DNA of 64,000 nt from Cupriavidus sp. EM10. GTDB taxonomy: Bacteria; Pseudomonadota; Gammaproteobacteria; Burkholderiales; Burkholderiaceae. This document shows, piece after piece, positions 1 through 22,638 of this stretch (the stretch's first letter is position 1; each line of letters opens with the position of its first letter). The DNA lies in contig NZ_CP076060.1 in NCBI RefSeq assembly GCF_018729255.1, positions 3,508,501 through 3,572,500 on the forward strand. The letters run 5' to 3'. The notes beneath the pieces are model-generated. The model was not told where the DNA came from. It did no database searches and saw only the letters and a list, made by a program, of their open reading frames with translations. The position numbers were made by a program, and so were the translations under genes.

Positions 1-238
1 CCAGGCTGAAGTAGAACGTGTGGTTCGGGTCCGACGGATCGTGCGGATGCCGCTTGAGCGCTTCCTTCCAGGAAATGTGCTCGCCCTTGTATTCGATGAC
101 GCGTTCGCCCTCGGCAATGGCGCCAATCGCGTACACACCCCTGCCATGCACGCCGGACTGGCGCACCTCGATGCGATCGCTGGCGGTCTTCTTCTTGCCT
201 GGCTTCAGTTCCCTGGCGTCGTTGGCCTTGTCCGACAT
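1..238 (-). CDS. SET-domain protein, N-terminal part (runs off left edge)
   Basis: Reading leftward from an ATG at 238, the frame stays open to the window edge and gives 79 residues. After a lysine-rich start of about 20 residues (GKKKTASDRIEVRQS) comes GVHGRGVYAIGAIAEGERVI followed by EYKGE. That is the opening of a SET domain (G-x-G-x-a/G-V-x-A with downstream E-Y-x-G-E). Known SET proteins are S-adenosylmethionine-dependent lysine methyltransferases; bacterial members are mostly uncharacterised. The catalytic NHxC and tyrosine motifs would lie outside the window, so activity cannot be judged. Its 5' end faces the repeat-rich non-coding region next to hupB. Confidence 0.85.
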   Translation of the reverse strand, partial: MSDKANDARELKPGKKKTASDRIEVRQSGVHGRGVYAIGAIAEGERVIEYKGEHISWKEALKRHPHDPSDPNHTFYFSL

Positions 239-359
239 TCTGATGTTCCTGCGGTGGTGGTGCCGGTCCAGTCCGGCGCGAACCGGATGATACCCGCGCG
301 GCTGTGTCAGGTATACGCATCATCCCCGCCTCCGGCATCGGAGCCGCCACGTATACCGA

Positions 360-390
360 TGTGGATAACCGGGCCCGTTTTTGTGGATAA
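360..390 (-). promoter_or_regulatory. Two perfect DnaA boxes, same orientation, 22 bp apart
   Basis: TGTGGATAA at 360-368 and again at 382-390 is the reverse complement of the DnaA-box consensus TTATCCACA, with no mismatch in either copy. Start-to-start distance is 22 bp, about two helical turns. DnaA binding is inferred from the consensus. Confidence 0.75.
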
Positions 391-563
391 GCGCATGGGT
401 TTGGTGTGGGCTGCCTGGGGCTGGCATGGGGACCGTATACGAACAACTTGGGCGGTATACGTCCCTCATCCCATCCAGAGGGATGAGTCATCCACGCGGT
501 CCAACACTTCATCCCTGTGCTTTCGGTATACGTAAACGCCTGAGCCGATTGAGGTATACCGGG

Positions 564-572
564 TTATCCACA
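564..572 (+). promoter_or_regulatory. Perfect DnaA box
   Basis: TTATCCACA on the plus strand, facing the pair at 360-390 and directly followed by a GC-rich spacer and an AT-rich run. Confidence 0.75.
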
Positions 573-640
573 GAAACCGGGGTGGTTTACCTATCACTAC
601 TATCTGTATACATGAAAGAAAGATGTAAACCATACGCAGG
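573..640. other. AT-rich segment with DnaA-trio-like triplets (candidate unwinding element)
   Basis: After the DnaA box comes a GC-rich spacer (573-585), then an AT-rich stretch containing CTATCACTACTATC (591-604). On the complementary strand this reads 3'-GAT-AGT-GAT-GAT-AG, resembling the DnaA-trio repeats (3'-GAT-5' type) of the basal unwinding system described for bacterial origins. About two thirds of 583-636 is A/T in an otherwise strongly GC-rich region. GTTTAC (585), GTATAC (606) and GTAAAC (625) lie inside it. The order box, GC spacer, trios is as expected; the role is inferred. Confidence 0.4.
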
Positions 641-665
641 AGGATCGCGCCGGGGCCGTATACCT

Positions 666-714
666 GCCGGAGGCAAGACGCGCAGAGGTGGCCTCCGGCC
701 TGACGGCCTTTTTT
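666..714 (+). terminator. Possible rho-independent terminator, plus strand
   Basis: GCCGGAGGC (666-674) pairs perfectly with GCCTCCGGC (691-699); a second short GGCC stem (697-708) leads into six T (709-714). The T-run is not directly adjacent to the longer stem, so efficiency is uncertain. No upstream protein gene explains it; a short transcript from the origin-like region would. Confidence 0.4.
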
Positions 715-723
715 GTGGTGATG

Positions 724-750
724 AAAAAACAGGCACTTCGTGGAAGTGCC
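724..750 (-). terminator. Rho-independent terminator, minus strand
   Basis: Read on the minus strand, GGCACTTC, loop CAC and GAAGTGCC (750-732) form a perfect 8-bp stem, followed after three bases by six T (729-724). It would end a leftward transcript starting to the right of 750. No leftward gene is recognisable there. Confidence 0.6.
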
Positions 751-851
751 GCCCCAACCCCCGAATCCATGGCGACCCTACGAGAAGGCGCGGTATACGT
801 CGCCCCGTCGCCCGAGCGCCGCGTCGAGCGATCGACTGCGCCGTGAGAAGC

Positions 852-877
852 CCGTAAGGCCCGTAAGGCCCGTATAC
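852..877. repeat. 9-bp tandem repeat running into GTATAC
   Basis: CCGTAAGGC is repeated at 852-860 and 861-869, and a third partial copy becomes CCGTATACGGC, which carries the GTATAC at 872. This suggests the palindromes and short tandem repeats evolve together. Confidence 0.5.
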
Positions 878-1003
878 GGCCCTCGGCAGGCGTATACGCT
901 CCGGTGGGCTATCCGAACGCCCCAAACGCGTCCTGAGCCGTATACGCGGCGCCAGGCCCGTATACCGTTGCTCGCCCTGTCCCGGGCCACCCCCGGCGTG
1001 AAG

Positions 1004-1033
1004 GGGGCGTAAAGGGGCATAAAGGGGCGTAAG
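1004..1033 (+). repeat. 10-bp tandem repeat, three copies
   Basis: GGGGCGTAAA (1004-1013), GGGGCATAAA (1014-1023) and GGGGCGTAAG (1024-1033) are exact 10-bp tandem units between the GTATAC cluster and hupB. Function unknown; the helical period would place any bound protein on one DNA face. Confidence 0.6.
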
Positions 1034-1242
1034 AGGCCGTTTCTCCCGCTCGCCTTTTCCGCAAAAAACCCGCCAACCTTGACCTGACGCGGCCTGCGCG
1101 GCATGGGCCGGTAACAAACTGTTCCCGGTGCGGCGTGTCCGACACGGTATGATGTGGCCCGCGGCGTCTTTGCCGGGGCGGCTTGCAGCCAAGCCCCCCG
1201 GTCAGGACGTCAGTGTTTTTTCAACTCGATACGGAGTGAAGC

Positions 1243-1521
1243 ATGACGAAAACCGAACTGATCGACGCGATCGCAGCTGGCGTGGACGGTCTGACCAAGG
1301 CCAAGGCCGAGCAAGCCCTGAACGTGACCCTGAACGCCATCATGGATGCCGTGGCCAAGGGCGAGACCCTGAGCCTGATCGGCTTTGGTACCTTCAGCAA
1401 GGGCGAACGTGGCGAGCGCATGGCCCGCAACCCGCGCACCGGCGAAGAAATCAAGGTGGAAGCTGCGAAGACCGTGAAGTTCAAGGCAGGTCAGAAGTTC
1501 AAGGACGCCGTCAACCAGTAA
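1243..1521 (+). CDS. hupB: HU-type DNA-binding protein
   Basis: A 92-residue protein matching the HU/IHF family over its whole length: helical dimerisation half (residues 1-40), then GFGTF (47-51) and the DNA-contacting arm with RNPRTG (62-67). HU is a non-specific nucleoid protein that bends DNA, and it assists DnaA-dependent unwinding in E. coli. The arm sequence and lack of a long C-terminal tail point to HU rather than IHF. The ATG follows a GGAG about 8 bases upstream. A TATGAT at 1148-1153 is a possible -10 with no good -35. It sits between the DnaA-box/GTATAC cluster and the 12-bp array, which makes a link to replication control attractive but unproven. Confidence 0.95.
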   Translation: MTKTELIDAIAAGVDGLTKAKAEQALNVTLNAIMDAVAKGETLSLIGFGTFSKGERGERMARNPRTGEEIKVEAAKTVKFKAGQKFKDAVNQ

Positions 1522-1614
1522 TGCCGACGGGCAGCTTGTCCGCCCGGTTCGCATGACCCCGCCGTGCCGCCGCCAGAGCCCGAAAGCGGCGCAGGTGCGC
1601 AGCGCGCGGGGACG

Positions 1615-1623
1615 TTATCCACA
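1615..1623 (+). promoter_or_regulatory. Perfect DnaA box downstream of hupB
   Basis: TTATCCACA with no mismatch, in the 346-bp gap between hupB and the DUF2272 lipoprotein gene. It is the fourth perfect DnaA box within 1.3 kb. Confidence 0.65.
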
Positions 1624-1786
1624 CCATTTTTCCCCCAGCTCCGCGTGGAGAATCGCACAGCTGGCCGGGCCACTTCACAGGCCCGCCGCAACCACGCGAA
1701 AATGTCATCCACGCTTGGCTGATCAAGGCCTTGCGCGAGATCAGGAATCACGAGCCTGACATGCCGTTCCGCTTGCCGCAGCGCAC

Positions 1787-1843
1787 ATTTCCACAGCCTT
1801 ATTCACAGCGCTTTCCACACAAACTTCCACAGCATTCTCCACA
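1787..1843 (+). repeat. Array of five DnaA-box-like motifs at exact 12-bp spacing
   Basis: YCACA cores start at 1791, 1803, 1815, 1827 and 1839, each exactly 12 bp after the last. The 9-mers ending in each core are ATTTCCACA, TTATTCACA, CTTTCCACA, ACTTCCACA and TTCTCCACA. The second fits TTWTNCACA fully, three differ at one base and one at two. Such regularity resembles iterons or ordered DnaA-box arrays. Twelve bases also equals four codons, so remnant coding is conceivable, but no start codon supports it. Confidence 0.55.
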
Positions 1844-22562: not shown

Positions 22563-22638
22563 TGGTGGCCTGGGACGGAATCGAACCGCCGACACAAGGA
22601 TTTTCAATCCTCTGCTCTACCGACTGAGCTACCGGGCC
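22563..22638 (-). tRNA. tRNA-Phe (anticodon GAA)
   Basis: 76 nt including an encoded 3' CCA. The acceptor stem pairs GGCCCGG with CCAGGCC (one mismatched or wobble pair), the D-loop is GCTCAGTCGGTAGAGC, the anticodon arm is AGGATTGAAAATCCT with GAA, and the T-arm is GGCGGTTCGATTCCGTC. GAA reads both Phe codons. It stands alone with its own terminator. Confidence 0.97.

Follow-up and report, generated by a model that had tools for sequence, protein, structure and literature searches.

DnaA boxes and probable unwinding module at the hupB locus

The 64-kb window analysed here, by which the whole stretch C1:3508501-3572500 of the main chromosome (C1) of Cupriavidus sp. EM10 is meant, begins with a SET-domain gene and the divergently oriented hupB, and the DNA between and behind these two genes (Table 1) is considered in the following as a candidate chromosomal replication origin, as had been put forward in an original prediction made from the sequence alone. 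The features on which that prediction was built, namely four perfect DnaA boxes, an AT-rich stretch with trio-like triplets, clustered GTWWAC sites and an adjacent HU gene, were all recovered. The four perfect boxes are the only copies of TTATCCACA in the window, which has a G+C content of 66.2%, and compare with a calculated expectation of 0.07, in agreement with the earlier estimate of far fewer than one; since none of 100 shuffles reaches four, the cluster exceeds chance, as is expected of a DnaA-dependent oriC. In addition, a fifth match to the motif TTWTNCACA at 1799(+) is indeed the only further one in the window (0/100 shuffles reach five), and what had escaped notice is that it constitutes the second of five DnaA-like nonamers arranged at an exact 12-bp pitch.

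Table 1. Features of the hupB locus in window coordinates, together with the second module in C1 coordinates
Feature	Position	Strand	Basis or remark
SET-domain gene, 5' part	2..238	-	open reading frame; divergent from hupB; extends beyond window
GTWWAC cluster, 16 sites including 13 GTATAC	311..965		motif count
DnaA box 1, TTATCCACA	360..368	-	perfect match
DnaA box 2, TTATCCACA	382..390	-	perfect match
DnaA box 3, adjoins unwinding element	564..572	+	perfect match, TTATCCACA
GC-rich spacer, 18 bp	573..590	+	sequence; last six bases GTTTAC (585-590)
DnaA-trios, 3'-GAT AGT GAT GAT-5'	591..602	-	sequence
AT-rich tract, likely first-opened DNA (opening inferred)	605..630		contains GTATAC 606-611 and GTAAAC 625-630
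hupB, HU protein, 92 aa	1243..1521	+	open reading frame; PF00216 match
DnaA box 4, TTATCCACA, 3' of hupB	1615..1623	+	perfect match
Five DnaA-like nonamers, exact 12-bp pitch	1787..1843 (1787, 1799, 1811, 1823, 1835)	+	sequence
Second box-trio-GTWWAC module	C1:3368100-3368340 (module C1:3368165; L051:12100-12340)	-	box TTATCCACG; 8 GTWWAC nearby

The locus was compared with its counterparts in the same genus, where hupB was found in 57 genomes and 33 loci were read (the present one included; 24 unread), and with ten loci of the Ralstonia-type genus g23. Counted from box 564, the module keeps a fixed geometry in 33/33 and 10/10 of these loci, respectively, in the order of two minus-strand boxes at -204 and -182, the plus-strand box, the spacer, the CTA trios, GTATAC and the AT-rich tract. 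All three boxes match 9/9 letters in each of the ten g23 loci. Within the genus, where every deviation is a single mismatch, the box at -204 is perfect in 26 loci (8/9 letters in 7), that at -182 in 18 (8/9 in 15) and box 564 in 11, the remainder carrying TTTTCCACA (16) or TTGTCCACA (6) at the latter position. A perfect counterpart of the downstream box is located at +371 to +382 from the hupB start in 30/30 genus loci; among three further ones it is perfect at +372/+374 in two, the third lying at +384. Two perfect boxes are present at locus L118. The 12-bp array is complete in 26 of the 33 same-genus loci, retains 4/5 nonamers in 6 and 2/5 in 1, and a scan of 320 kb of arm sequence of the own genome, on both strands, yielded no segment scoring at least three.

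The triplets of the unwinding element read CTA TCA CTA CTA on the plus strand, with the trio adenine of the minus strand in 3/4, so that at least three DnaA-trios, in the correct strand orientation, lie 3' to a DnaA box, as is demanded of the basal unwinding system (BUS). CTACTA was found in 44/44 oriented loci and the longer CTACTACTACTA in 19/33 same-genus and 9/10 g23 loci, the latter genus also featuring a second box-like sequence, CTATCCACC, which makes the spacer shorter. Further genera of the family keep a box pair at -181/0, -180/0 or -170/0 in most of the module loci listed and display GTTAAC at +25, directly ahead of the trios. The module was detected neither at dnaA, for which five genomes were scanned, nor in the 320 kb of own arm samples. 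A scan of GTDB species contigs for the succession of box, spacer, trios and GTWWAC returned at least 118 stretches, of which 80 were read; among these 80 matches listed, 79 belong to genera placed in Burkholderiales and one to Prolixibacteraceae, which is taken as chance, and the gene context comprises HU in 24, Tag in 19, SET only in 11, an ArsR-type gene in 3 and none of these in 23.

GTWWAC sites and the orphan methylase

Clustering of GTWWAC is pronounced: the window contains 26 sites versus 11.85 expected, 16 of which fall within 655 bp, and of its 14 GTATAC sites the same interval contains 13. Relative to box 564, sites at -10 and +42 are fixed in all 33 same-genus loci, that at -32 in 31, that at +21 in 29, and those at -38 and +61 in 27, while the total number amounts to 9-18 per locus and positions outside these six offsets vary between species. 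Of 74 module loci read, 73 fit the module pattern and represent 63 distinct cores; all 63 possess at least one GTWWAC within 75 bp, with a mean of 2.5 versus 0.10 in mononucleotide shuffles, the sequences being related and thus non-independent. At the remaining locus, L151, box and trios are present but GTWWAC is missing, and the genome concerned (G073) yields only a weak methylase match. The unwinding element accordingly shows the density of target sites that is known from Dam/SeqA-like control. Adjacent GTWWAC sites are 18-23 bp apart in 118/475 cases versus 39 by chance; helical phasing was considered and is not claimed, since many of these spacings come from the inherited core (6, 22, 31, 21 and 19 bp).

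In the own genome, the gene of a PF01555 methylase is inserted between trpB and trpA; its product is probably the GTWWAC enzyme, the motif being deduced from published relatives. In the material available from the respective reports, GTWWAC is methylated by the orphan enzyme RSc1982 in Ralstonia solanacearum (PMC5390034, PMC11460718) and by the orphan enzyme BCAM0992 in Burkholderia cenocepacia (PMC7364216); for Cupriavidus necator H16, orphan methylation of GTWWAC is a REBASE prediction, to which the authors assign, as an assumption, a role other than defence (PMC12645576). Strong methylase matches occur in 89/120 genomes of the family. A methylase match is present in 67/68 genomes with the box-trio pattern versus 22/52 without, and conversely the pattern is found in 67/89 methylase genomes versus 1/31 others, an association that is confounded by phylogeny, as many of the negatives are small-genome genera. 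In 2 of the 67 (G079, G095) the pattern matches are unlike the module, and a backwards control pattern matched 5/120 genomes. A separate accumulation of five GTATAC in 55 bp was observed on C2 (C2:1433182-1433236, L269), directly after a trypsin/PDZ protease gene.

Strand composition around the locus

The genome comprises 6.66 Mb in four contigs, and because dnaA starts 702 bases ahead of the end of C1 (3,607,341 bases) and resumes at its start, C1 was treated as a circle. Among named records, the nearest to its methylase and Tag proteins are from Cupriavidus. The original prediction had correctly noted that no dnaA lies nearby: on the same contig, its start is 98 kb distant from the locus across the contig junction. 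Own sequence was joined into 511 contiguous kb, from C1:3196001 across the junction to C1:100000; a 2500-base N run at C1:3320001-3322500 is part of the sequence used. The cumulative GC-skew minimum of these 511 kb is C1:3510342, corresponding to window position 1842, and a two-segment fit places the change point at C1:3507001 (bootstrap 95% 3471001-3541001), with 0.1% of bootstraps at or beyond dnaA. Models of strand bias that use 3- to 6-mers and were trained with 16 samples from the arms reach their minima at C1:3504040-3505997, 3-5 kb left of the core. Thus, GC skew and k-mers both reveal the switch in strand composition that is expected of oriC, with which the FtsK-orienting polar sequences (KOPS) disagree. 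A skew minimum elsewhere had been named beforehand as evidence that would speak against an origin here, and none emerged in the 511 kb, the remainder of C1 having been sampled coarsely by 20 stretches.

Among these C1 samples, the stretch at 1.504-1.524 Mb has a positive skew and that at 1.692-1.712 Mb a negative one, which places the terminus ahead of 1.69 Mb and closer to the hupB antipode (~1.706 Mb) than to the dnaA antipode (~1.804 Mb). The sole match to the dif consensus, at C1:1655800, is situated closer to the hupB antipode than to the dnaA antipode but, with 3 mismatches, is too weak to be used.

Skew minima were also located in relatives. In genus g10 of the family, 3.3 kb separate the skew minimum of G120 (201239; 95% 189001-212001) from the module (197984) and 66 kb separate it from dnaA; for the minimum of G152 (68829; 48976-87001), the respective distances are 2.6 kb and 233 kb. 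In G018, a member of the same genus as the own genome, hupB is 9 kb away from the minimum (199984). KOPS polarity and GC-skew switch are ~137 kb apart in the own genome, and offsets between the two exist in four relatives too; relative to the hupB module, the KOPS switch is displaced in the direction of dnaA in three of them (G018, G120, G124) and in the opposite direction in G152.

Interpretation and alternative explanations

Since the skew and k-mer minima lie at or close to the hupB locus, the module is conserved and none was found at dnaA in the five genomes scanned, the locus is very probably the oriC of the main chromosome (3.61 Mb), ~100 kb away from dnaA. Hence, of the three options originally offered, i.e. 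an origin away from dnaA, a datA-like titration site and a DnaA-regulated locus, the first is best supported by skew, k-mers and the conserved module, with KOPS against it.

Several observations weigh against this assignment. As regards strand composition, the k-mer models were right for only 21-24/32 blocks in cross-validation, the cumulative skew of the 20 samples is broad, with its lowest value at 3.01 Mb and a nearly flat course to 3.40 Mb, and 13/15 KOPS from the locus to dnaA point in the left-arm direction, their switch being near C1:40 kb. In relatives, the skew interval of G018 is wide (137001-271026), the minimum of G124 in g23 (1577175; 1503976-1658001) matches neither hupB nor dnaA, and the KOPS switches are off the hupB module in all four genomes. 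As regards the module, box 564 is perfect in only 11/33 same-genus loci, its spacer is, at 18 bp, longer than the 16 bp allowed in the published BUS search, g23 lacks most GTWWAC sites and keeps those at +42 (10/10) and +61 (9/10), and the 12-bp array was not seen in the g23 loci.

The complete explanation, in which oriC function is combined with opening by DnaA and trios and with a methylation step, is regarded as highly probable. DnaA would bind the three core boxes (360, 382, 564) and, starting at box 564, spread over the trios on the minus strand, upon which the adjoining AT-rich tract would open and two forks would depart bidirectionally. Box 1615 and the nonamer array may serve to load or hold additional DnaA, or to titrate it. 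The orphan methylase whose gene separates trpB from trpA would methylate GTWWAC in and around the unwinding element, and the hemimethylated state after firing would probably delay re-initiation. In Escherichia coli, hemimethylation of the GATC sites of Dam after firing delays re-initiation; the oriC of this organism, with GATC, Dam and SeqA, resembles the present locus in its dense palindromic targets of N6-methyladenine formation in and around the unwinding element and in its stand-alone methylase, but differs in motif, enzyme and gene context (trpB-trpA), the comparison covering sites and methylase. By analogy with the same organism, the neighbouring HU might aid opening, which is a guess. 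As GTWWAC sites surround the DNA-opening element, a methylation-based control of replication is suggested, and for the claim that methylation acts on initiation at the hupB locus itself we consider the balance to be even.

Two alternatives concern the GTWWAC sites and are compatible with an origin at this place. According to the first, which appears unlikely, the sites act in transcription, with methylation as a switch for the SET and hupB promoters, which point in opposite directions; this follows a proposal for R. solanacearum, where three conserved sites overlapping predicted -35 boxes are described for the SET-HU interval in the relevant portion of PMC5390034, and the locus may be an origin as well. 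In accordance with this, the sites are situated between SET and hupB; six of them, however, keep a constant offset from the DnaA box and trios, other genera keep GTWWAC at the trios even though the HU gene is 2-4 kb off, and a simple sigma-70 scan of 230-1870 delivered a single promoter-like site (0.4 expected), which is outside the cluster. According to the second, to which we likewise assign a low probability, the core is oriC and the extra GTATAC copies either form an incidental repeat or serve as an array of targets for a GTATAC-reading protein that is blind to methylation. The variation between species beyond the six core offsets and the mere 2-3 sites of g23 relatives would fit this, whereas the count is held at 9-18 across the genus, it is GTWWAC and not GTATAC alone that is kept, with GTTTAC and GTTAAC preceding the trios, and the chromid origin on C2 is clustered too.

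That the origin instead resides at or near dnaA, with the hupB locus acting as a DnaA-titration site or DnaA-regulated locus, is very improbable: in its favour are the dnaA-dnaN-gyrB order, one perfect and further imperfect boxes upstream of dnaA, the contrary KOPS, which switch closer to dnaA than to hupB, and the 12-bp-pitch array, which would suit titration, but it is opposed by skew and k-mers, by the failure to find a box-trio module near dnaA in the five genomes scanned and by the distant skew minima of the two g10 genomes, and the titration variant loses weight through the full unwinding element at hupB, which a titration site does not need.

Relation to described systems

Parts of this picture are already in print. 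For chromosome 1 of Cupriavidus metallidurans CH34, the passages concerned of PMC2864759 describe a putative origin, where the skew changes ~90 kb from dnaA and three perfect boxes occur within 213 nt, and this skew shift and box triplet fit the hupB core: the window boxes at 360-572 likewise span 213 nt, as do those of L082 (G017, hupB at 3836433). Unlike here, hupB, the trios, GTWWAC and the 12-bp array are not named in those passages. For C. necator N-1, a marker-frequency run is in print (PMC13342612).

In B. cenocepacia, according to the pertinent sections of PMC4948915 and PMC7364216, sequencing gradients of chromosome 1 start at the predicted origin region near nucleotide 1, and dnaA is BCAL0423; similar to the present locus, GTWWAC is found between DnaA boxes of oriC1 and the origin is distant from dnaA by gene number. 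In contrast, these sections leave the exact origin open, describe at least two GTWWAC between the boxes rather than a 16-site cluster, and include CACAG methylation. The corresponding part of PMC7364216 places GTWWAC near origins. With the BUS, as outlined in the part of PMC8287927 drawn upon, the locus shares the arrangement of DnaA box, spacer and DnaA-trios on one strand, and is distinguished by its 18-bp spacer, the genus-degenerate box partner and methylation sites within the module. The SET-HU region of R. solanacearum occupies the orthologous place and has conserved methylated GTWWAC, but in the pertinent portion of PMC5390034 only three sites are given, which are read as promoter control and not as an origin. 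No paper joining the hupB link, trios and GTWWAC placement as parts of an origin was retrieved from the open-licence full texts searched.

As far as the cited portions of the literature go, the conserved orphan GTWWAC methylase of Burkholderiaceae has so far been tied mainly to promoters, with a hint at origins. The sites around the DnaA-trios provide a defined 100-bp target for the question of origin methylation and suggest that a Dam-like control employing another motif and enzyme may exist in Burkholderiaceae. Moreover, the site speaks for chromosome maps and copy-number models of Cupriavidus that begin at hupB and not at dnaA.

A second module and the chromid origin

In each of five genomes, scanning of the 358-511 kb that surround the origin revealed two modules. 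The second module of the own genome is flanked by tag (PF03352) on one side and by a LysE-type gene (PF01810) on the other, 141 kb from oriC, and that of G018 is beside tag as well, 147 kb from hupB, without an adjacent LysE-type gene. The ninth base of the box distinguishes the two types: among the 80 scan matches listed, and counting tag-linked and HU-linked loci only, it is G, C or T in 19/19 tag-linked and A in 24/24 HU-linked modules. G120 and G152 have a common second module in another neighbourhood, with the box TTATCCACT. In g23, the box-trio pattern is matched perfectly at two places in 9/10 genomes, 18-34 kb apart when on the same contig (8/9); an example is G124, with two perfect box-trio modules at C3:1660114 and 1694557, where the second module, with the box TTATCCACA, is ahead of an ArsR-like gene.

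On C2, the chromid origin (C2:1262413-1264884, L268) features iterons interleaved with 11 GTWWAC in 1.06 kb (1262686-1263745), and this cluster lies upstream of the RepA gene, behind which ParA and ParB genes follow. It is tentatively proposed, with somewhat less than even confidence, that chromosomes of the family possess two opening modules under one methylation code, of which the hupB oriC is active and the other is kept within each genus, with its box detuned in Cupriavidus; the second module might be a conditional origin or a timing site, read by DnaA and methylation, that ties chromosome firing to the chromid. As such, it is a concrete candidate either for an additional origin or for an element that coordinates chromosome and chromid.

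Further features of the locus and window

In full length (locus L040), the SET gene matches PF00856, the 79-aa part inside the window alone having no Pfam match. A parB gene and three parS sites are located ~40 kb left of the hupB locus. Terminator-like sites number 3 in 230-1870 versus 1.5 expected, and one terminator-like stem of 8 pairs followed by a T-run, at 750-732 (-), is inside the origin region. The sole Rfam match in the window is a tRNA gene at 22566-22638 (-).

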